NCBI GenBank assembly: GCA_949482135.1
Contig: CASYFC010000002.1
Location: 310,001 to 374,000, forward strand
DNA: 64,000 nucleotides
Direction of reading: 5' to 3'
Source of the DNA: an uncultured Clostridia bacterium
GTDB lineage: Bacteria; Bacillota; Clostridia; TANB77; CAG-508
A program made the translations under genes and the position numbers. Position 1 is the first letter of the stretch; every line of letters starts with the position of its first letter. Shown here one piece after another: positions 3,152-55,713 of the stretch. The notes below the pieces were generated by a model that was given only the letters and a program-made list of their open reading frames with translations, was not told the DNA's origin and made no database searches.

Positions 3152-4546
3152 ATGAAAGAAAAAATGAAAAGATTATTTGAAAATGGAACTTATGCACTAA
3201 TTTTATTATTTATTTTAGAAATTATTTTAATAATGTTTGTTACTCCTAATTTATATGATGATGAATGGTTTATAAAGAAAGTAACAAATGAAATAAATCC
3301 AGAAACAAATGAAGTAATTGAACACAATATAACTGGCTTTGTTCAAGAAAGATATTTTAACTGGTCATCAAGAGTAATAATTGAGTATATTTTATGTTTA
3401 ACATTAAAGACTTCAAAATATTTGTGGATATTATTAGAAGCATTAATGGTAACAATAGTTGGATATTCAATATCCAAAATATTTGTAAAAGATAATAAAA
3501 AAGAAAATAATGCTATTTTAATATCAATGATTTTGATTTATCCATATACAATTATGCATCAAGCTGGGTGGGCTGCTACAACAATAAATTATATGTGGCC
3601 ACTAGCTATGTGTTTATTCGCATTAATACCAATAAAAAAGATGTGGTATGGTGAAAAAATTAAATTGTGGGAATACCCACTTTATTCTGTTTCTCTTTTA
3701 TTTGCAGGAAATCATGAACAGGCAAGTAGTTTGTTAGTTTGTTTTTACATACTATTTACAGTAATAATGATTGTAAGAGATAAGAAAATAAAACCATATA
3801 TGCTTATTCAAAGTGTTTTGGCTCTTAGCTCAATAATATTTATTTTAACTTGTCCAGGAAACTATGTGAGACAAGAAGAGGAAATGCGTAGATTTATAGA
3901 TTTCGGAATGTTAACATTTTTAGATAAATTTGTATTAGGATTTACATCAAGTTTTGGACAAATAATTGCAAATCAGAATATAGTTTATACATTACTTACA
4001 TCGTTACTTGCAATTTATATATTTTCTAATTATAAGGCAAAGATATATAGAGTAGTTTCGTTAGTACCATTAGTTTCTATATTGGTATTTGGACATTTTT
4101 CGAGTATAACTTTTGAAATATTTCCTAATTTAGAAATATTTTATGAATTATTAACTACAAAAGATGTATTGCTTACAGTAGCAAATTGTAATAAAATTTA
4201 TTATACATTTCCAATTATATTTACTTTTGCAAATTTTATTTGTATTGGAATGTCTTTATTATTACTTACTAAAAAGTATAAGAATAATATAGCTGTACTA
4301 ATATATTTGGCAGGATTAGCTTCAAGAGTTATTATGGGATTTTCGCCAACTGTATTTGTTTCCAAAACAAGAACAATGATATTTTTAGATTTTGCAATGA
4401 TAATAATAAGTTTCTTAATATGGCAACAACTAAATACTAAGAAAGTAAAGGGAATAAATTATATAAATGGAATTATAAAGCTCACAGCAGTTATACAATA
4501 TTTAAATATCATGATATATATTTATAGTGAACAAAAATTATATTAA
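3152..4546 (+). CDS. Polytopic membrane protein of DUF6056-like type
   Basis: This 464-residue protein has about 11 hydrophobic segments. After the first helix there is an acidic motif, YDDEWF, followed by FNWSSRVIIEY. That pattern (aromatic-DD-x-W/Y plus a later W-S-x-R) is typical of the DUF6056 group of GT-C-like membrane proteins in Firmicutes, where the acidic pair is thought to sit at an active site. It also has a GNHEQAS motif near residue 188. It is the last gene of the operon starting at 575 and is followed by a strong terminator. Assignment to a lipid-linked sugar transferase fold is inference; the substrate is unknown. Confidence 0.6.
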   Translation: MKEKMKRLFENGTYALILLFILEIILIMFVTPNLYDDEWFIKKVTNEINPETNEVIEHNITGFVQERYFNWSSRVIIEYILCLTLKTSKYLWILLEALMVTIVGYSISKIFVKDNKKENNAILISMILIYPYTIMHQAGWAATTINYMWPLAMCLFALIPIKKMWYGEKIKLWEYPLYSVSLLFAGNHEQASSLLVCFYILFTVIMIVRDKKIKPYMLIQSVLALSSIIFILTCPGNYVRQEEEMRRFIDFGMLTFLDKFVLGFTSSFGQIIANQNIVYTLLTSLLAIYIFSNYKAKIYRVVSLVPLVSILVFGHFSSITFEIFPNLEIFYELLTTKDVLLTVANCNKIYYTFPIIFTFANFICIGMSLLLLTKKYKNNIAVLIYLAGLASRVIMGFSPTVFVSKTRTMIFLDFAMIIISFLIWQQLNTKKVKGINYINGIIKLTAVIQYLNIMIYIYSEQKLY

Positions 4547-4597: not shown

Positions 4598-4836
4598 AAA
4601 TGTGCAAAGCAAAGATGTTGCTAATGTGATGCATGGTGTGGATTGCAGAGAAGTGAAGGGATTGAGCGTTTTTAAAAAATAAACAAGAATTGTGAAAACT
4701 TGTATGTGTTGATATTACTGGATTTTGATGTTGCTTCCCAAAATGAGCATAAATTGTACTCATTTTTGGATATATGATAATATTTACTTGGAAAAAAATA
4801 AAAAATTGAAGATGATATAAATAAAATGGAGTTAGA

Positions 4837-7800
4837 ATGAAACAAAATAATAAAAAAACAGGCATTTATTTGTGGAAACTTATGTTAATAATTATATATA
4901 TTTTTATCCTTTGCATTTCGATAGAAGGATTTTTAATAGTTGAGAGAAAAATAAAAAACTTAATTGTTGGGAACTCAAATGAATATGATTCTTCAATAGA
5001 AATTCAAGAGAATGGAAAAGATGGTATAAGTGAAACACTTAATGGAGATAAAGCATATGTAAGTTATATAGAGATACCATCAAACTCAAATACTGAGTCT
5101 GGAAAGGATATAAAAACGGGGACTGCACCATATGATACAGAAAATAGTCAAGATGATAGTGATTATACAAAAACATTAGTTGCAGGAGATGATAATACAG
5201 CATTAAACAACATAGTACGTACATTTGATACAATTTCATATAAAGTAAGTGTTTATACATCAATGAGTGATAGTACTATAAGTGGTTTTAAATATGGTAA
5301 AGTTTATTTTGAATTACTATTGCCATATTCAAATGAGGAAGCTATATTTGAAACCGATGGTATGGGGTCATTATTAAGTCAAAAAGAAATAGAATTTAAA
5401 ATAATTACAATTAATAATGAACAAACAGGAGGAAAAGATTGGCAAGTACTAAAAGGAAGTTTTCTAAGTACACCAAATAATAATAATGAAATTTCAATTG
5501 GAAATTCATATATGACTTTTGATGTTGTAATTAGAGTTTTATCAATGAAAAATGGAGAAAAAATGCAACCTAAGTTTACTTTCTGGTTACAAGATAATGA
5601 TGTATTTGGAGGTCAAGAGTTTGATACAGCAATAAATAATTGGTATACAGATGAAACTAATAATAGTTTTTTAGTTACTTTAAATGGTAGTAAGTGTAGT
5701 ATTCATCAAACTCAAGATGGTCAAGAACTTCAGGAATATCAAACTTGTGTGCCACCAGAAATAATGGTTACAGCAGTTCCAAGATATAATTTGCAAGTGG
5801 TAAGTGGAAATCAAATGTGGAATCAAAAATTAGGGGTTTTCGATTTTAATGTTGGAGAAAAATGGGCACCTAATTATGGAATAGGAAAAGTAAATGGACG
5901 TTTAATAGGGTATGGTATTGTAGTTCAATTAGTTGGGAAAACAAAATCTCATGGATTAAAAGGAGTTGAATTACCAGATACAAGTAGACCAATTACTTTT
6001 AATTTGAAATTATCTTCAAAATATCTTCATGGTGAAAACACTATAGATGTAACAGAAGAGTATAAACCATTATTATATAGCTTAGAAGGAAATGAACCTT
6101 GGGGGGACAAACAAGAAGATGGTAGAATAATAACAGCAAATCATTATGGATGTTTAGATATTCCAAGAAATATTAGAGCGCCATGGAATGGGATAATAGA
6201 TTCTTGTTATAATGGTGGAACTTGGAGAGGAAAAGTAAATGAAGACAATTCAGTAACTATAACAATTACTGACTTTAAAATTAATTTAAATGAATTACCA
6301 TGGGGAATTTTAGATAGTGGAAAAATTACTTACTATAATCCAAATGAAATAAATAATTATTGGGAAATACAAACAGGATGCATAGGAGCAGGAGAAATAT
6401 GGCTAGTTCAACCTTTTTATAATTCTAATGAAGAATCAGATTCATATAAAAAACATATATTAGACCAATATGGTAGTGGAACATTTAATGTTTCTATAGA
6501 AGATAGTAATTTACATATGTATGGTATAGATGGAAAAAATGTAGAAAAGCAATCAGTAGAAAGTGATGATATAGCAACAACTGATTGTTATTTAGAAAAA
6601 GAAGGTTATATTACATCACACATTTTTTATAAAAAATATAAGGGGAATCAATGGAATGATTCATTAGCAGATGGATGTTTTGATAATGGCAGAGATTATG
6701 CATCTCCAAAACAAAAATTTACACTTGCTGAATGGATAACACATAGTGCTCCAGAAGGAAAATATGTAGGTACTGCTTTTGATTCTCTTATAAAATGGGA
6801 TAGTGATTTTGTTGAAGTAGAAGGCTGTGAAATAGAGGAAAGATCCCCTGAGTTTGTACAAAAAGATGGTATAGTTCGTTTATTATGGGCTGCCAAACCA
6901 GATAAGACTGGATGGAATCATAATGGTTTAAAATCTGATGAAAATGGTTATGATGAAGAAATGATAAATGCAACTGCAGATGATTTAGTGTTTTTTGAAT
7001 CTTTAGAAGAATTACAAGAAAAAGGCTATATATGTCTTGGATTGCTATTGGAAACAAGAGGTGTAGAAGATGAAGGAATTCAAAATGAAATAGGAGTCCA
7101 TGTGCATACAACTGTAAAAGAAGATTGTATACCTGGAAATGTTTATATGATAACACATAATAATTATGTATGGAATAAATCAGATCTTAAAGAATTAGTA
7201 TCTGAATATTCTGGAAAAGATGTATCAGAATTAGATGATAATGATTATAATAATTATGTAAAAAGCGATAAATTTCCTACAAGAAAAAATCAAAATTCAA
7301 AAGAAAATGCGTTAAATTATGAAAGAGATTATCCTAATGCATGTTGGGTTAAAACAGCAGATACATTTGAAGATATAAAAGGATATATAAAAACTAAATA
7401 TAATGAAGATGGTTCAATAATAGGAAGTGGTGGAAATATACTTGGAGATTCATGTTTAGTTGTAGAGTATAATGTAAATAACAAAATAACAACAGCTCAA
7501 ACAGGTATTAACGAAAGTGGTAATAAGGGTGAAAAGAAAAATTATAATTTAGACTTAGGAGAACGTATTGTAGATTTTAAAATTAGCTCAGAAGTTACTT
7601 CTAAAGTTGAAATAAGTGGTACAGAAAATACCAGAAAAACAACATTAACTTTAAAAGCAACGCTATGTAAAGGACTAAAGTATATAAGAAATTCATCATT
7701 TTGGGGAGGTACTTATAAAGAAGCAAGTGTAGGTCAAGGAAGTGTTGAAAACTCTGCTCAGATATTTGCAGAAGTAATTGAAAATGATGATGGTACTACA

Positions 7801-32682: not shown

Positions 32683-32711
32683 TTGTTAAAATTTTTTAAA
32701 AATGCTATAAT
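32683..32711 (+). promoter_or_regulatory. Promoter of the large structured RNA
   Basis: TTGTTA at 32683-32688 and TATAAT at 32706-32711 are spaced by 17 bases. It fits a transcript starting near 32718. Confidence 0.65.
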
Positions 32712-32717
32712 AAAAAA

Positions 32718-33305
32718 CATCGTTGGTGCATTATTCTAGTGTATACTCCTGTTATGAGGGTGGGCCTAAAAATCTACTATAGAGTGTTATCAGTCGAAGT
32801 TTCTTAGAGCACTGCGCATTACGCCCAGTTTTGCGTGGTCCTGAGGAGTAAAGGAATTAGGATAGCATGTAATGGCATATATGTGATTCCTGCTTCCGTT
32901 GAGACTTATTCGTTTTATTCCAGAATAGGTAAACCCATAGGCTTTTGCATATGGTGGTAATAACTTGTCTTGAGTGGTGATTTGGGATTAATCGCAAAGT
33001 ATAATAAGATATTGGCCAAATACTTTATTATATTTGATTATGAAACTATTACTGCAAAAGAGACTAATAGCAGGCTAGGATACTCAAAGAAAATTTCTAG
33101 AGTGTTTGCTTAGATTGATAAGCAAAAGAACTTGAGGATTAAGGTACGGATTTAAGTGGTGATCTGGCGACACCTTTTTATAGGTGGGGTTTTCCCTAAG
33201 CGGAAACGGCTTTTTAGTAATGAAAAGTGGAAAATTGAGAAAATCTGCTAGACCTAAACCGTAAAATTTACTCAAGTTCTTACCAAATTCATATTAATTA
33301 TTTAG
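32718..33305 (+). ncRNA. ole: OLE-like large structured RNA
   Basis: About 590 bases without a credible gene are visibly richer in G and C than the surroundings and contain many paired segments, for example ACTTGAGGATTAAGG at 33130 facing CTCAAGTTCTT at 33270, and GACACCTTTT/TAGGTGGGGTTTTCC near 33168-33195. OLE (ornate, large, extremophilic) RNAs are about 600 nt, occur in Firmicutes, and usually lie immediately upstream of the gene for their membrane partner OapA. Here the next gene looks like OapA. They form a membrane-associated ribonucleoprotein linked to stress and magnesium homeostasis. I rely on size, position and neighbour; a covariance-model search (Rfam OLE) would settle it. No protein frame here is believable. 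Confidence 0.75.
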
Positions 33306-48171: not shown

Positions 48172-49218
48172 ATGAAAAAAATAATTAGTTCTATTATTTT
48201 ATTAATGATAGTTTTTATAATTATGTTTTCAGTAAATAGTTATGCAGTTTTATTAGATAGAGTTGATGTACAAGTAGATAAAACAACTGTAAGACCAGGA
48301 GAAAATGTAACAGTAAATATTAATTTTGGAGAGAACTTGGGAGCATATACTGCAAATATTTCTTATGATAATAAACTTTTTGAATATGTAAGCACAGAGG
48401 GAGGAACGGCAAATGATCAAACAGATAAGGTAAAAGTTGTTTATTTTGATCAAACAGGTGGACAAAATCCAAGAAGTAATATGAGCGTTACTTTTAAAGC
48501 TAAAGATGATATAACAACATCAAATCCTACTGAATTTACTGTAACTTTAGAGGGGATGGCAAATAATAATGCATCTATAACTTTTGATGATATAACAACA
48601 CCAATTGTCAAAAATGTAGTTGTGGAACCAGAGTTTTTAGATTATTTACTAAAATTGGAATATACAGGAGATGTTATAGAAAATGAAGAAAAGGATATGA
48701 AAATTTCATATTCATCTAGCAGTGGAAAACATTATGCAAAAGCAAGATTAGTATTAGATGCAACAACACCAGATGGAGCAAGTGTACAATTAATAGGTAT
48801 AGATAATGAAAATTTAAAACATGATATTATTCAAAGTGGATGGGGAGATTCTCAAGGTTATGAAATAGGTGGAAAAAATTTTGCACAAGTTTTAGATGTT
48901 CAAGGTACTTTTTCTAAAAAAGGTGCTTATACTATTACTTTAAAATTAATAGATAGAGAAAATTCAGATACAGTAATTGCTCAAAATACAGTTAATATAA
49001 CTGTTTCTGAAAAAGAAGAACAAGTTCAAAAGCCAGAAGAAAATGTTGGTGAATTAACTCCAGAAAATACGAAACCTCAAGATCAAACAACACCAGAGAT
49101 TCAAAATACAGCAAAACAACCAAGTAAATTACCTAAAACTGGCACTAATATATATATTCCATTAGGAATGATTTTATTTAGTTTGGTTGGAGCAGTTATA
49201 GTTAATAATAAAAAGTAA
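48172..49218 (+). CDS. Cohesin-domain protein with LPKTG wall anchor
   Basis: This 348-residue surface protein has a signal peptide at 1-25. A cohesin domain spans about 28-150 (VDVQVDKTTVRPGENVTVNI, ANISYDNKLFEYVSTEGG, MSVTFKAKDD, PTEFTVTLEGMA). A second beta domain lies at about 160-278, then a Pro/Glu/Thr linker. LPKTG is at 320-324, followed by a hydrophobic helix and NNKK. It should be linked to the wall by a sortase; a sortase gene is the next one. The dockerin-bearing glucosaminidase at 50044 is two genes on, a plausible partner for this cohesin. AGGAGG precedes the ATG. Confidence 0.85.
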   Translation: MKKIISSIILLMIVFIIMFSVNSYAVLLDRVDVQVDKTTVRPGENVTVNINFGENLGAYTANISYDNKLFEYVSTEGGTANDQTDKVKVVYFDQTGGQNPRSNMSVTFKAKDDITTSNPTEFTVTLEGMANNNASITFDDITTPIVKNVVVEPEFLDYLLKLEYTGDVIENEEKDMKISYSSSSGKHYAKARLVLDATTPDGASVQLIGIDNENLKHDIIQSGWGDSQGYEIGGKNFAQVLDVQGTFSKKGAYTITLKLIDRENSDTVIAQNTVNITVSEKEEQVQKPEENVGELTPENTKPQDQTTPEIQNTAKQPSKLPKTGTNIYIPLGMILFSLVGAVIVNNKK

Positions 49219-49268
49219 AAAATAACGTGGACTGAAAATGATCTTAATAATTTATGAAATGAATTATT

Positions 49269-49352
49269 AAGTACTGAAGCTGTAACAAATATAAAGCTTA
49301 GATTCTTGAAGTACTGAAACTGTAACAAGTAAAATTTAACAGTTTCAGTAAC
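49269..49352 (+). repeat. Short repeated hairpin element
   Basis: AAGTACTGAAGCTGTAACAA at 49269-49288 recurs with one change at 49309-49328. The second copy forms a 12-bp stem with ACAGTTTCAGTA at 49339-49350. The stem is related to the terminator at 48061. No T run follows, so it may limit rather than stop transcription into the sortase gene. Confidence 0.6.
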
Positions 49353-49387
49353 AGGCTTCAGGATACATAATCTATAGAAAGGCAAGA

Positions 49388-50020
49388 ATGATGAGTAGGA
49401 AAGAAAGGAGAAAAATAAAAGAAAAAAGAGTTATAAATATTTTTTTTATAATTGCAATTTTTGTAGTATTTTTTTATATTGCAGTTGAGGTATATAAAGA
49501 AAAGAAACAAGAAAAAGAAAATAATTATCAAGTAAAAAGATTATTTATAGATGAATACGAAAATAATTCTGATGAAATTGAAAAAGAGAAATATCCTAAG
49601 GAAAAAATAGATGAAATATATAAAGGATATGATGTACTTGCTAAATTAGAAATTCCAAAAATAAATCTTGAAACATATGTAATTAATTTTTCAGAAAGTG
49701 CATTAAATGTTTCGGTTACTAAATTTTGGGGAAAGAAACCTAACGAAGTAGGAAATTTTTGTGTAGCAGGTCATAATTTTAAAAATAAAAATATGTTTCA
49801 TAATTTAAAGAAATTAGAAGTTGGAGATAAAGTAATTTTAAAAGATAATGATATTGGTTGTGTAGAGTATGAAATTTATAATATTTATACTGTTGTTCCA
49901 GAAGATGTAAGTTGTCTTTCTCAAAATACTGATGGAAGAAAAGAAGTTACTTTAATTACATGTACAAATGATTCTAAAAGGAGAATTATTATAAAATCAA
50001 GAGAATGTATTGAAACATAA
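49388..50020 (+). CDS. Sortase (class D-like)
   Basis: This 210-residue membrane transpeptidase has an N-terminal membrane segment at about 15-35. The catalytic residues are His129 in VAGHN, Cys192 in TLITCTN and Arg at 198-199 in SKRRIII. The compact size, the short distance between His and Cys and the TLxTC-x-N motif point to class D rather than the class B enzyme at 17.8 kb. It sits between an LPKTG cohesin protein and a dockerin hydrolase, so it probably anchors the LPKTG protein and perhaps the LPITG giant protein. AGAAAGG precedes the ATG. Confidence 0.85.
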   Translation: MMSRKERRKIKEKRVINIFFIIAIFVVFFYIAVEVYKEKKQEKENNYQVKRLFIDEYENNSDEIEKEKYPKEKIDEIYKGYDVLAKLEIPKINLETYVINFSESALNVSVTKFWGKKPNEVGNFCVAGHNFKNKNMFHNLKKLEVGDKVILKDNDIGCVEYEIYNIYTVVPEDVSCLSQNTDGRKEVTLITCTNDSKRRIIIKSRECIET

Positions 50021-50043
50021 AATAATAATTAAAGAGGTTGCAT

Positions 50044-51546
50044 ATGAAAAAAATAAAAATTTGTATAATGATATTTTTATTAGAATTATTTTTCATAATA
50101 TTGTATTTTAAAGTAAATGCATATACCAAATTAGAAGGAATAGAATGTTTTCCATTAAGTTATCAGGGATATTTACAAGAGCTAAAGAAAAAACATCCAA
50201 CCTGGAATTTTACAGCTCTATATACCGATTTAAATTGGAATTATGTGATAGAACAAGAAAATATCTTTGGCAAAAACTTAGTTCCAAAAAATTACTCTGA
50301 TAATTGGAAAAATTCAAATCCTAATGAATATAACTTAGAGGTAGATTTAGGCTGGGTAGATAGTTCTAAAAGAGCTGTTGAATATTGTATGGATCCAAGA
50401 AATTTTTTAAATGAAAAAAGAATTTTTCAATTTGAAGCTTTATCATATAATTCTAAAACCAATAATATAAATGGAATTGAAAAGATTTTATATGGAACTG
50501 AATTTTACAGCAAAAAAGTAGAATATTTAAATAGTAATGGAAATACAATTAATATGAATGAAAAGTATTCTGATTTAATATTAAAAGCAGGACAAACATC
50601 TGGAGTTAGTTCATATCATTTAGCATCACGTATAAAACAAGAAGTAGGACCATTTTTGACACATAATTCAATTAGTGGAAAAGTGGAAGGATTTGAAGGG
50701 CTATATAATTTTTATAATATAGGAGCAACAAGTTCAAGTCAGCCAATGGGAGCAATAAAAAATGGACTCGAGTTTGCAAGGAATGGTAAAAATGCTTCAG
50801 AAGATATAAAGAGAGCTTATTTACTTCCATGGAATACCAAAGAAAAAGCAATTACAGGTGGTGCAATATTTATAGGTTCTAGTTATATTAATAAAGGGCA
50901 AAATACTATTTATTTACAAAAATTCCATGTAAATACGAATGGAGATAGTGGATTATTTTGGCATCAATATATGACGAATGTTTTGGCACCATATAGTGAA
51001 TCATTATCTATTTATAATGGATATAATAGAAGTAATTTATTAGATATAGATAGAGAATTTATTATTCCAATTTTTAATAATATGCCTATTGTTCAAGTAC
51101 AAAATCCCAATATTAATCTAAATGAATTTATAGATAATAATTCAAGAGTTTATTGTAATGGAGAAAATGTTAATATAAGAACTGGACCAAATACATCTTA
51201 TGAAATTATTACTACAATTTCATATCCAGAAAAATTAAAAAGAATTAAATTTGGAAATCAATCAGGAGAAAAATGGGATATGGTAATTCTAGAAAATGGA
51301 ATAGTTGGATATATATATCAAAAGTATATTACAAATGATGATGAAATTTTATATGGAGATGTAAATGGTGATGGAAAAATTACAAGTATAGATTTATTAG
51401 TTTTACAAAGACACATTTTAGGATTAGAAATTCTCGAAGAAAGATATAAAAAAGCAGGGAATACTAGTAAAAATGGACAAGATCCAACATCTGTTGACTT
51501 ATTAGTAATTCAAAGACACATATTAGGGATAGAACAAATTAATTAA
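50044..51546 (+). CDS. Secreted N-acetylglucosaminidase with SH3 and dockerin domains
   Basis: This 500-residue peptidoglycan hydrolase starts at the ATG at 50044, 6 bases after AAAGAGG. A signal peptide (about 1-24) is followed by a region typical of clostridial glucosaminidases (FPLSYQGYLQELKKKHPTWNF, GWVDSSKRAVEYCMDPRNFL) and the glucosaminidase core at about 185-320 with SSYHLASRIKQEVGP carrying the probable catalytic Glu, plus YNFYNIGA. A bacterial SH3 domain lies at about 375-430 (NVNIRTGPNTSYEII), and the dockerin at about 436-500 has the first loop GDVNGDGKITSIDLLVLQRH; the second half lacks the usual Asp-rich loop (SKNGQDPTSVDLL). It probably docks onto the LPKTG cohesin protein. Confidence 0.87.
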   Translation: MKKIKICIMIFLLELFFIILYFKVNAYTKLEGIECFPLSYQGYLQELKKKHPTWNFTALYTDLNWNYVIEQENIFGKNLVPKNYSDNWKNSNPNEYNLEVDLGWVDSSKRAVEYCMDPRNFLNEKRIFQFEALSYNSKTNNINGIEKILYGTEFYSKKVEYLNSNGNTINMNEKYSDLILKAGQTSGVSSYHLASRIKQEVGPFLTHNSISGKVEGFEGLYNFYNIGATSSSQPMGAIKNGLEFARNGKNASEDIKRAYLLPWNTKEKAITGGAIFIGSSYINKGQNTIYLQKFHVNTNGDSGLFWHQYMTNVLAPYSESLSIYNGYNRSNLLDIDREFIIPIFNNMPIVQVQNPNINLNEFIDNNSRVYCNGENVNIRTGPNTSYEIITTISYPEKLKRIKFGNQSGEKWDMVILENGIVGYIYQKYITNDDEILYGDVNGDGKITSIDLLVLQRHILGLEILEERYKKAGNTSKNGQDPTSVDLLVIQRHILGIEQIN

Positions 51547-51567
51547 TAATAATAAGGAGATAATATT

Positions 51568-52329
51568 GTGAGTAAATTAAAAAATTTAAGAATTAATCAA
51601 GAGGGAATTCTACCAAGTTTTGATAAAGAAATTCATGATTATTATTTAACTATAAATGAAGACATTTATAATTTACAAATTGAAGCAATACCTGAAAATA
51701 TAAATTCAAAAATAGAGATTTTAGGTAATAGTAATTTTAAAAATGGAGAGAATTTGGTAAAAATTATTGTTAAAGGAGAAAGTGATGAAACTTATAATAT
51801 ACATGTAAATAAAGTTAGTAACTTAAATTTATCTAATGCTAATCTTGAAAATCTTGCAGTAGAAAATGAATTATTAAATCCTCCATTTAATACCAATATA
51901 ACAGAATATAGTTTAGAAATATCAAATGATATTGAAACCTTAAATATATTAGCTATCCCAGAAAATGAAAGTTCGAAAATAGAAATTATTCGAGAAAGTA
52001 GATTAAATATAGGAAATAATTTAATTAAAGTTATTGTGACTTCAGAAAATAGTAGTGTAAAAAAAGTTTATGAGATACATGCATATAAAAAAACTAAAAG
52101 AGAAACAGAAGAATATAACAAAATTCAACAAGAAAGCTATGAGAATGCGCAAGAATTGTTAAAAGAAAATTACAATATAGATAATCATTATAATACAGAA
52201 AAAACTAGTATTATGGTAACACAATACAAATCGAATAATGAAATTGTAAAAATAGGAATATTTATAAGTATAGTATTTATTTTGTTAATAGTTGTTATAT
52301 TAATAAAATATAAAAGGAAGAAAAAATAA
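51568..52329 (+). CDS. Tail-anchored protein with two cadherin-like beta domains
   Basis: This 253-residue protein starts at a GTG preceded by AAGGAGA at 8 bases, with an in-frame stop just upstream. Two cadherin-like beta-sandwich domains are visible, at about 3-90 (LKNLRINQEGILPSFDKEIHDYYLTI) and 93-170 (LENLAVENELLNPPFNTNITEYSLEI). A Lys/Glu linker and one membrane segment at about 229-248 with KRKKK follow. There is no signal peptide, which is odd for domains of this type that are normally extracellular. It could be a tail-anchored protein, or the piece of a larger secreted protein that lost its start. It follows the glucosaminidase gene by 21 bases and is probably co-transcribed. Confidence 0.7.
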   Translation: MSKLKNLRINQEGILPSFDKEIHDYYLTINEDIYNLQIEAIPENINSKIEILGNSNFKNGENLVKIIVKGESDETYNIHVNKVSNLNLSNANLENLAVENELLNPPFNTNITEYSLEISNDIETLNILAIPENESSKIEIIRESRLNIGNNLIKVIVTSENSSVKKVYEIHAYKKTKRETEEYNKIQQESYENAQELLKENYNIDNHYNTEKTSIMVTQYKSNNEIVKIGIFISIVFILLIVVILIKYKRKKK

Positions 52330-54610: not shown

Positions 54611-54693
54611 GTGTATAAAGGATAATTTATTTTAGTATTATAGTAAAATAAAGAAAAATTAAAAAAAATTTCAAAAAAGATTTACATAAACTA

Positions 54694-54722
54694 TTGACAT
54701 ATAAAAGATAGCGTGCTATAAT
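54694..54722 (+). promoter_or_regulatory. Consensus promoter of the micro-ORF unit
   Basis: TTGACA at 54694-54699 and TATAAT at 54717-54722 are exactly 17 bases apart, a perfect SigA consensus. A small hairpin (AGGGATATTTATCCCT, 54735-54750) lies at the start of the transcript. Confidence 0.88.
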
Positions 54723-54783
54723 TATAATTGTTGAAGGGATATTTATCCCTACATCATAAAACTGAATAAAGGAGGGAAATCTA

Positions 54784-54837
54784 TTGACTATCAGAGGCAA
54801 GCCTATGGCTAACATTTTCTTTTCTTATAATGACTAA
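54784..54837 (+). CDS. Possible leader peptide of 17 residues at the head of the micro-ORF unit
   Basis: A TTG at 54784 lies 8 bases after AAAGGAGG and opens a frame reading MTIRGKPMANIFFSYND before TAA. An internal ATG at 54805 is in the same frame. The peptide does not share the TSGF motif of the four micro-ORFs that follow. The strong ribosome site is the only support, and it could instead be a non-coding part of the leader. Confidence 0.3.
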   Translation: MTIRGKPMANIFFSYND

Positions 54838-54904
54838 CCATCAGCGCCGCCGGCGACCCTTAACTGGGCCTGTAGCCAGCAGCCAGTAAAAGAAAGGAGA
54901 ATGT

Positions 54905-54931
54905 ATGCGGTATACAAGTGGTTTTGTCTAG
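54905..54931 (+). CDS. Micro-ORF 1, peptide MRYTSGFV
   Basis: Eight codons end in TAG. AAAGGAGA ends 4 bases upstream. This is the first of four tandem tiny frames sharing [YF]TSGF[VT]. Codons here are TAT ACA AGT GGT TTT GTC; the fourth copy uses different third bases for Thr, Ser, Gly and Val yet keeps the same residues, which supports selection on the peptide. An overlapping frame from the ATG at 54901 (16 codons) is not shared by the other copies. There is no signal peptide or known family. The function is unknown. Confidence 0.65.
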   Translation: MRYTSGFV

Positions 54932-55031
54932 TAACACCCAACCCTGTGTAAGGAAATCACCGGCTACGCCAACAAGGAGGCCCGCGACTGGCGGACCCCA
55001 ATAGGGCGACGAGCAAGGAGGAAAAGATCAG

Positions 55032-55061
55032 ATGTGGCGGTTTACGAGTGGATTTGTGTAG
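55032..55061 (+). CDS. Micro-ORF 2, peptide MWRFTSGFV
   Basis: Nine codons end in TAG. AAGGAGG lies 10 bases upstream, followed by AAAAGATCAG, a segment identical in copy 3. It shares RFTSGFV with its siblings and has an extra Trp after Met. The peptide is short, hydrophobic with one Arg, and has no leader for the Sec pathway. Confidence 0.65.
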   Translation: MWRFTSGFV

Positions 55062-55150
55062 TGTAAAGATTTACCAGAAAAGAAAAGATCGAAGAGCTGC
55101 CCCAGATGAGGGGCCCTGAAGGCGCGTCGCGCCAAGGAGGAAAAGATCAG

Positions 55151-55177
55151 ATGCGGTTTACGAGTGGATTTACCTAG
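55151..55177 (+). CDS. Micro-ORF 3, peptide MRFTSGFT
   Basis: Eight codons end in TAG, with AAGGAGG 10 bases upstream. It differs from copy 2 by loss of the Trp codon and by ACC (Thr) for GTG (Val) at the last position, the only non-conservative change in the shared motif among the four copies. The upstream block is nearly identical to that of copy 2, so these two are recent duplicates. Confidence 0.62.
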   Translation: MRFTSGFT

Positions 55178-55229
55178 TGGCGAAATGTATATCAAAAAAC
55201 GATATGATAGCCGAGAAGGAGACTGAAAA

Positions 55230-55259
55230 ATGCCGGTTTTTACAAGCGGATTTGTGTAG
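55230..55259 (+). CDS. Micro-ORF 4, peptide MPVFTSGFV
   Basis: Nine codons end in TAG. AGAAGGAGA lies 7 bases upstream. The body reads TTT ACA AGC GGA TTT GTG; relative to copy 2, the Thr and Ser codons differ only at silent positions while the start of the peptide (PV) varies. It is the last copy; structured sequence and a terminator follow. Confidence 0.65.
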   Translation: MPVFTSGFV

Positions 55260-55382
55260 TACCGATTTCTATCAAAAGCAATTTTGATCGATTTGCCCTA
55301 GGGCACTGCGCCGCAATGCGGCAGCGAAGCCGATGAGGCATGAAAGCGCAAGATGCGCAATGAGGTTTTATGAATACCACAT

Positions 55383-55416
55383 ACCGCCCCCAAAATGGGG
55401 GCGGTAATCTTTTTTA
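55383..55416 (+). terminator. Terminator of the micro-ORF unit
   Basis: ACCGCCCCC pairs with GGGGGCGGT around AAAAT and is followed by AATCTTTTTT, an exceptionally GC-rich stem for this genome. Confidence 0.9.
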
Positions 55417-55444
55417 TATAAATATTGAATAATATAAATTTTAT

Positions 55445-55473: not shown

Positions 55474-55493
55474 AATAAATGTAGTATATATAA

Positions 55494-55713
55494 GCTATGA
55501 AAAGGAAAAGTAAAATAAAGGTTACCTCAAGAGAGAAAGTGTGATGCGCTGAAAGCACTTTTAGGAAAACATATTTGAAAAACTACCTTGGAGCTTCCAT
55601 TTGAAAAAGTGGCGTGTAAGATACGTTAAAATCTGTTAAGAGTTAAACAGTAGGGTGGAACCGTGAGAAAATAAACTTACCCCTATAGGTAATATTGCCT
55701 ATAGGGGCTTTTT
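55494..55713 (+). promoter_or_regulatory. T-box riboswitch (threonine) upstream of thrS
   Basis: This leader senses uncharged tRNA-Thr and lets transcription continue when charging is low. Visible elements are a stem I with AGAGAG near 55531, a specifier region ACTACC just before TTGGAGC near 55585-55598 (both ACT and ACC are threonine codons), the T-box core AGGGTGGAACCGTG at 55652-55665 that pairs with the tRNA acceptor end, and an intrinsic terminator at 55680-55713 (CCCCTATAGG with CCTATAGGGG, then TTTTT). The downstream gene confirms the amino acid. Confidence 0.93.

Follow-up and report, generated by a model that had tools for sequence, protein, structure and literature searches.

The window analysed here is a 64,000-nucleotide stretch of the genome of an uncultured Clostridia bacterium (contig CASYFC010000002.1, positions 310,001 to 374,000), in which positions 54694-55416 carry a tandem array of micro-open reading frames (micro-ORFs) whose peptides end in Ser-Gly-Phe (SGF) plus one further residue. 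Comparison with relatives strongly supports selection on the peptides encoded by these in-frame micro-ORFs; each array has at most four of the tiny frames, and the total stands at 38 loci from 33 genomes, all within a single Clostridia family. The same sequence comparison shows a stand-alone layout, a conserved C-terminus, a biased stop codon and, in one subtype, a covarying RNA junction. It is tentatively proposed, with somewhat less than even confidence, that the micro-ORFs hold ribosomes at termination on a stand-alone riboregulatory RNA.

The promoter, the four frames with their ribosome-binding sites (RBSs) and the terminator described in the first-pass annotation were re-verified, and every part was found in its place within 54694-55416. 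The array and the elements around it are arranged as follows:

54694 to 54722, + strand: promoter TTGACA-17-TATAAT, 12/12 consensus matches, with TG ahead of the -10 element
54732 to 54753, + strand: hairpin near the presumed transcript 5' end, in both the minimum free energy (MFE) and the centroid structure
54784 to 54837, + strand: first micro-ORF, RBS-preceded, TTG start, LTIRGKPMANIFFSYND, stop UAA, unlike the SGF frames
54894 to 54899, + strand: RBS AAGGAG of micro-ORF 1
54905 to 54931, + strand: micro-ORF 1, MRYTSGFV, stop UAG
55016 to 55021, + strand: RBS AGGAGG of micro-ORF 2
55032 to 55061, + strand: micro-ORF 2, MWRFTSGFV, stop UAG
55121 to 55133, + strand: GC-rich inverted repeat GGCGCG-TC-GCGCC, seen in the sequence, ending just 5' of the RBS of micro-ORF 3
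55135 to 55140, + strand: RBS AGGAGG of micro-ORF 3
55151 to 55177, + strand: micro-ORF 3, MRFTSGFT, stop UAG
55216 to 55221, + strand: RBS AAGGAG of micro-ORF 4
55230 to 55259, + strand: micro-ORF 4, MPVFTSGFV, stop UAG
55382 to 55415, + strand: predicted intrinsic terminator of the array transcript (stem 55382-55406, then T)

Judged by its sequence, the promoter is a perfect one of the sigma-A type; the region holds five promoter-like sites scoring at least 9/12, compared with a mean of 3.8 in 50 shuffles. The spacing between RBS and start is 5, 10, 10 and 8 nucleotides for micro-ORFs 1 to 4, and in all four the stop is UAG and the next base T. The differences previously listed within the shared motif (silent ACA/ACG, AGT/AGC, GGT/GGA and GTC/GTG, one Tyr/Phe and one Val/Thr exchange) proved correct. 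A tetrapeptide common to at least two RBS-preceded micro-ORFs arose in 0/1000 dinucleotide shuffles of 54691-55425, whereas four share one in the real region. Copies 2 and 3 look recently duplicated because 24 nucleotides spanning the RBS and start are 96% identical between them; copies 1 and 4 are more diverged. The RGKPM.NI portion of LTIRGKPMANIFFSYND recurs in the first frame of the relative L040, MVRGKPMFNILINFSTNLFA, and first frames of an M-x-RGP type open several other arrays. By eye, a hairpin occupies a place similar to that of 54732-54753 in several other arrays. The window is AT-rich, and its array occupies one of the parts with a higher GC content.

Selection on the peptide was assessed by scanning the 38 loci on the array strand for GF-x-stop cores (n=76), with a start sought within 28 codons; Gly and Phe are demanded by the scan, and the invariance of either is consequently not evidence. 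An RBS and a start were found in frame for 68 of the 76 cores, the two alternative frames giving 4 and 6, and one copy of locus L055 is among the eight cores lacking a listed RBS with an in-frame start. The 68 in-frame cores reduce to 63 distinct DNA frames and 60 peptides. Serine of the SGF motif is encoded by AGT or AGC in 32 cases and by TCA or TCT in 17 (n=49). Since no single silent change converts an AGY codon into a TCN codon, the use of both boxes argues for selection at the peptide level. The first-pass claim that the frames go beyond what RNA conservation alone would explain is thus borne out by the relatives, both by the serine codons and by the 68 in-frame cores. It had been set out in advance that homologues keeping the nucleotides and breaking the frames would speak against coding; the RBS, start and frame are instead retained in those 68 of 76.

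The resulting consensus is R-[YF]-[TP]-S-G-F-[VT]-stop. Among the 63 distinct frames, 61 have an aromatic residue (Y/F/H/W) at position -6 and 59 have S or T at -4; T or P at -5 and V or T at the last position are found in 43 each, and R at -7 in 31. The peptides are 8-26 amino acids long (at most 15 in 60 of the 63), and their N-termini differ in length and sequence, even between the homologous arrays L040, L048 and L050, which share ~68-69% DNA identity. Conserved C-terminal residues combined with a free N-terminus mark termination-arrest peptides, and this is the pattern found here.

The stop codon and its context are biased as well. The 63 frames end in UAG in 55 cases, in UAA in 8 and in UGA in none, and the base 3' of the stop is T or C in 58. 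Because the search models contain the stop, a separate count was made on 23 hand-listed frames that were not themselves discovery hits, excluding viral frames, those of family f5 and one frame without an RBS; 19 of these end in UAG and 4 in UAA. By comparison, UAG closes 18 of 98 long stop-free frames (150 codons or more) from the same DNA (Fisher's test against the 23 frames, 1e-8) and 17 of 47 RBS-preceded micro-ORFs of the window other than the array's four (one-sided Fisher's test, 2.5e-4). The UAG bias is real, not absolute. Readthrough of UAG was considered and rejected by eye, as the sequences after the stop are not alike in frame.

The survey of neighbouring genes suggested in the first-pass annotation was carried out with the downstream gene defined as the first stop-free stretch of at least 600 nucleotides in the fetched DNA, and found neighbours that differ between arrays and a next long frame that is mostly convergent. 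Over the 38 loci, this frame is convergent in 26, co-directional in 7 (the window included) and absent from the fetched DNA in 5; the 26 convergent cases are not independent, because some represent the same gene in related species. With convergence in 26 of 33 loci, the arrays are not leaders as a class; arrest leaders lie in the 5' leader of a regulated gene, and most loci do not. In the window, two Band-7/SPFH genes lie upstream, and a T-box and thrS follow downstream in the same direction. thrS has its own promoter-like site in addition to the T-box, and the array terminator lies between the array and thrS. The T-box leader before thrS, at 55488-55687, scores just above the Rfam gathering score. 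Elsewhere, the neighbours include, by Pfam, GAPDH and CpsB beside L040, ClpC before L036, a class II aminoacyl-tRNA synthetase after L052 and a PD-(D/E)XK nuclease-helicase after L136, and a short co-directional frame lies downstream at L048, L050 and L135. Among the nine Pfam-tested neighbours of the window's array there are no processing, modifying or export families, no RRNPP-type receptor gene, and no adenylating enzyme MccB with exporter. This agrees with the earlier remark that no modifying enzyme or dedicated exporter stands beside the array; a sortase for surface proteins lies 5 kb off.

The hosts are gut-type bacteria known solely from assembled genomes. The family is invisible to whole-array DNA similarity, because blastn over 56 genomes recovered the window's own locus and otherwise only short matches no better than chance; the same search gave two phage records with a 25-base match and no plasmid. 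The genome search for tandem RBS-preceded micro-ORFs, also a suggestion of the first-pass annotation, is what led to the family of 38 loci. A first scan of public genomes yielded nine loci, of which L040 (an uncultured Clostridiaceae bacterium) and L036 (an uncultured Clostridia bacterium), both from the same family as the window's genome, are plainly homologous arrays with promoter-like, tandem and terminator-like parts. L032 and L038 are single, possibly spurious matches; L031, L033-L035, L037 and L039, lone matches with nothing in tandem, were treated as chance. The strict pattern [YF]TSGFV-UAG occurs in 1 of 53 genomes of the genus and 2 of 385 of the order, a rarity that is only apparent because profile models found more. 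A 29-base sequence profile (R1, E 0.05) matched 24 of 390 family genomes, and 20 of these contain micro-ORFs of SGF type on reading; the other four (G465, G226, G227 and G444) were dropped for having no RBS-preceded micro-ORF at the site.

A second profile (R2) and a promoter pattern added loci in genera g14 and g15. In g14, R2 at E 0.2 matched 18 of 27 genomes, and SGF frames are present in 14 of the 27 in the loci read. In g15, R2 at E 0.3 matched 20 of 30 genomes, with SGF frames in 12 on reading, and the promoter pattern alone added 2, so that at least one SGF frame with an RBS is present in 14 of the 30 in the loci read; R2 matches lacking a locus were left unread. Class-wide, R2 at E 0.02 matched 1 of 341 genomes, the window's own, a cut-off so strict that this is weak evidence of absence. 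Matches in family f5, of the same order, cover 3 of 36 genomes, one of them real: an array of three frames, MLKCMRFPVGFI, MKTLIFNSGFT and MKKKKRLTSGFT (the last by eye), all ending in UAG. No array was found in the 13 genomes of family f4.

Several loci depart from the usual form. L055 holds an odd array at ~1390-1640 (oriented), in which one copy has a weak RBS, a second has no RBS and a further copy-like stretch lacks a stop; from its sequence, this array appears to be decaying or not translated. At ~1270-1470 of L136, the first frame is separated from the SGF frame by short tandem repeats of a GCGCAGATGGCGCG-type unit. In L089, L091 and L123, the array is followed by another promoter-hairpin-terminator unit of similar style that has no SGF frame. 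The promoter word TTGACRTTTACATAA (L100-L127, L123, L129) is found in 27 of the 30 genomes of a single genus, in one to three copies each, compared with one match for its reversed control. It was rejected as an array-specific mark, since many of its sites precede an aldose-epimerase gene (Pfam-confirmed for one), and a regulator shared between the arrays and that gene is possible.

Arrays of this kind are also found in the viral collection IMG/VR, where four degenerate scans gave 149 loci. Tandem SGF frames are present on four of them:

L166, contig of 139,573 bases: MRRFPTGFV UAG, MYYSGFT UAA, MYPTGFI UAA
L177, contig of 125,807 bases: MREYPTGFI UAG, MYTSGFI UGA
L182, contig of 171,974 bases: MFTSGFL UAG, MYWSGFV UAG
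L307, contig of 38,621 bases: MKYYTGFT UAG, MYSSGFV UAG

Six further loci have a single frame of consensus form, some perhaps by chance. By eye, the flanks in L166, L182 and L307 are promoter-like and terminator-like. The smallest form of the frame is a heptapeptide, M-[YF]-x-S-G-F-x, for example MYTSGFT on contigs of this collection. Five transfer RNA (tRNA) genes lie near each of L172 and L189, and three tRNA genes plus a transfer-messenger RNA (tmRNA) near L188. On L188, the tmRNA and a tRNA called with anticodon TTA, which would read UAA, lie at 4358-4432 and 4729-5057 near an SGF frame. A YqaJ-like viral recombinase is encoded on L188 (Pfam), and a PHROG test of five proteins from L166 and L307 gave one strong match, one weak match and three without any. 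The viral origin of the remaining contigs rests on collection membership.

At the level of RNA structure, Rfam at gathering score gives no match to the window's array (the window yields only the OLE RNA and the T-box, both elsewhere) and none in 20 array loci; in eight loci, six of them from the viral collection, only tRNA and tmRNA alongside were matched. A further search gave matches below threshold only. Local folding of 55 frames from 26 arrays, set against 30 spacer shuffles, showed that the 28 bases before the RBSs are more stable than expected (MFE -4.08 vs -1.98, standard deviation 0.26). The idea of exposed ribosome sites flanked by hairpins was consequently half rejected, only the upstream structure being real. 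Because there is no average excess of structure after the stops, the post-stop junction is regarded as a subtype feature. In this subtype (L063, L065, L074, L130, L142 and L143), a predicted three-way junction starts five nucleotides after the stop. A covariance model (R3) matched the junction in 10 of the genus's 27 genomes at E 0.1. In these ten sequences, 96.7% of cells pair, compared with 39-57% when the alignment is slid, and 7 of 21 pairs are changed on both sides (as many in 3 of 500 shuffles, and never more than 2 pairs on sliding); helix 2 contains six of these seven. Given the presumed size of the ribosomal footprint, a ribosome poised with its A site on the stop would be expected to overlap the helix that closes the junction. 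The leader and first frame of the subtype (M-I-R-[GA]-P-T-N, ~1200-1300, oriented) are strongly conserved.

Four of the ten (L158-L161) have, ahead of the junction, a frame that ends in KVPGKWFS-UAA and whose stop falls within the first hairpin. This variant preserves the RNA position, and its conserved C-terminus is a different one with Phe again penultimate. Penultimate Phe is imposed by the scan in the 63 frames and is not imposed in these four, which were found via the RNA junction. L158-L161 (~1330-1570, oriented) represent a sister RNA class, with a first frame MTARGNP[KR] and the second ending in KVPGKWFS-UAA.

In the mechanism proposed for the arrays, the locus is a stand-alone RNA gene, equipped with a promoter and terminator of its own, from which a transcript carrying serial micro-ORFs would be made. 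On translation, the nascent C-terminus aromatic-x-S-G-F-x may slow or block release-factor action at the stop, perhaps with the help of a ligand. As the stop is usually UAG, read by release factor 1 (RF1) only, ribosomes would dwell at the termination of each frame in a manner dependent on RF1. A dwelling ribosome would set the fold, processing or stability of the RNA adjoining the stop, and the transcript would act as a trans-acting sensor or regulator of translation termination. A hold at termination is proposed because the constraint falls on the stop and on the part of the peptide next to the peptidyl transferase centre, where known termination-arrest peptides act.

The closest parallels are arrest leaders. 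In MsrDL (MYLIFM), termination is blocked and the penultimate F5 clashes with a release-factor glutamine (PMC10314930). The likeness lies in the very short frame, the penultimate Phe, which in MsrDL clashes with the Gly-Gly-Gln (GGQ) loop, and the importance of stop identity in MsrDL; MsrDL differs in being a cis-acting, single-copy leader of one gene that needs a macrolide and prefers UAA, whereas the SGF arrays are stand-alone, often serial, UAG-biased and of other sequence. TnaC and SpeFL also arrest at the stop codon, as proposed by analogy for the SGF frames. The penultimate replacement R23F strengthens TnaC arrest, lowering the Trp requirement ~30-fold, and Phe23 would clash with Gln252 of RF2; SpeFL is said to inhibit RF1 (PMC8429421). 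TnaC and SpeFL sense Trp or ornithine and control a downstream operon, which most SGF arrays do not have. A bulky penultimate residue facing the GGQ loop is a feature of MsrDL and TnaC R23F and no general rule. Since a regulated downstream gene, the defining feature of arrest leaders, is absent for most loci, the arrays are not classed among them. The large structured RNAs OLE, ROOL and GOLLD also stand alone between genes, measure several hundred bases and come from comparable hosts, the latter two from phages as well; the arrays differ in being built around micro-ORFs and, in all those tested, in having no Rfam match. Type I toxins combine a hydrophobic membrane peptide of ~20-60 amino acids with an antisense RNA, and the SGF peptides, of 8-26 and mostly at most 15 residues, do not fit this description.

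A number of observations weigh against ribosome holding at termination. In most loci there is no downstream gene able to act as the usual read-out. Set against random micro-ORFs instead of genes, the UAG bias is less pronounced, as it also is when only one frame per array is counted (12 of 16, p 0.002). UAG is not universal: 8 of the 63 frames and all four KWFS frames use UAA, and the viral-collection frames beside the discovering one end in UAA twice in L166, in UGA once in L177 and in UAG once in L182. UAG is also no general mark of arrest, because changing UAA to UAG or UGA weakened induction by MsrDL (PMC10314930). The 28 nucleotides after the stop have no hairpin excess on average (MFE -2.06 vs -2.07 when shuffled), and ribosome-site exposure is not higher than in spacer shuffles (0.418 vs 0.444, standard deviation 0.021). 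In the junction, helix 1 is invariant, the alignment was fitted to the model, and further pair types show no excess (12 vs 11.5 in shuffles). Finally, no description of arrest by SGF-x was found in the literature searched.

The alternative in which the peptides themselves are the product, as multi-copy short linear peptides (a signal, an RRNPP-type pheromone, a formyl peptide or a small antimicrobial) leaving by a general exporter, is considered unlikely. The conservation of C-terminal amino acids across synonymous codons fits it, tandem copies would raise the dose, and in pheromone precursors the active peptide is often the C-terminal part. However, it leaves the UAG bias and the pyrimidine after the stop unexplained, the peptides differ inside most arrays (L058 repeats one), the window's nine Pfam-tested neighbours include no receptor, exporter or modifying enzyme, and heptapeptides such as MYTSGFT leave scant room for a leader. 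In the first-pass annotation, the peptides had been regarded as expressed products, perhaps signals, microcin-like precursors or formyl-peptide effectors; selection on the peptides stands, and their role as products has become less likely, given constraint at the C-terminus and stop, the UAG bias and differing peptides within most arrays. The microcin C parallel drawn there holds for gene size and not for membership. The precursor gene mccA has 7-8 codons, a C-terminal Asn and adjacent genes for MccB and an exporter, whereas 0 of 63 frames end in Asn, the copies are several and non-identical, and no MccB or exporter is found among the window's neighbours. An array might also serve as a sink for ribosomes, RF1 or tRNA, its many starts tying up ribosomes or release factor or causing peptidyl-tRNA drop-off, as the two-codon lambda bar minigenes do, in which translation itself has the effect. 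Serial strong RBSs on one transcript with its own promoter would suit this role, as would the presence of some viral-collection copies close to genes for tRNA and tmRNA, a setting in which commandeering translation would be an advantage. A sink has no need of a conserved C-terminal peptide, which the lambda minigenes lack and the SGF frames have, and some loci hold only one SGF frame; this explanation is accordingly thought quite improbable.

It is very unlikely that the repeat is a motif of a structured non-coding RNA with the frames as by-products. Serine in both codon boxes and in-frame starts for 68 of 76 cores contradict it, although the covarying junction of one subtype, the stable folding upstream of the RBSs (-4.08 vs -1.98) and the L055 copy without an RBS are in its favour. 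There is hardly any likelihood that the array is a leader or attenuator in which stalled ribosomes let RNA polymerase pass the terminator into the next gene. That layout, micro-ORFs followed by a terminator, is present, with thrS co-directional in the window, 7 of 33 loci co-directional and a short co-directional frame at L048, L050 and L135; it is opposed by the convergent next long frame in 26 of 33 loci, by the promoter-like site and T-box that thrS has of its own, and by neighbours as different as GAPDH, ClpC, CpsB, a class II aminoacyl-tRNA synthetase and thrS. Equally remote is an A-site endonuclease cassette, in which the UAG codons would be cut sites of a RelE-type ribosome-dependent nuclease and the RNA would be processed or act as a decoy. 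UAG is among the A-site codons cut most efficiently by RelE, in line with the bias, but UGA is cut well too (PMC2807027) and 0 of 63 frames use it. No link to a nuclease gene was seen, no systematic search having been made.

Two other features of the window lie apart from the array. An OLE RNA (RF01071) is located at 32707-33302 (288.7 bits, E 5e-81). At 48172-52326, a Cohesin-domain protein with an LPKTG-like end, a sortase, a dockerin and SH3 protein and a cadherin-like protein are encoded in a row and perhaps constitute a small surface-display cluster.

Genes of 7-15 codons escape annotation, and this family, present in more than 30 genomes and on viral-collection contigs, was recognised by comparison alone. 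Neither a stand-alone RNA of serial micro-ORFs nor any of six peptide strings of the family was found in the literature searched, which did not cover bioRxiv and most subscription papers. A further-reaching and somewhat more doubtful possibility is that the arrays are a novel type of gene, whose stand-alone RNA would gauge the state of translation termination in trans. Its serial frames of 7-15 codons would each catch one terminating ribosome via SGF-x, mostly at UAG, and occupancy would toggle neighbouring RNA junctions and hence the activity or lifetime of the RNA. Such a gene would be common to Clostridia and large phages; in some of the phages it would lie beside tRNA and tmRNA genes, maybe to sense or steer host translation. 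The sequence aromatic-x-S-G-F-x-stop after a ribosome site offers a search motif for ribosome profiling data. Should ribosomes indeed be held at these stops away from any leader, arrest peptides would have a role beyond switching the next gene.

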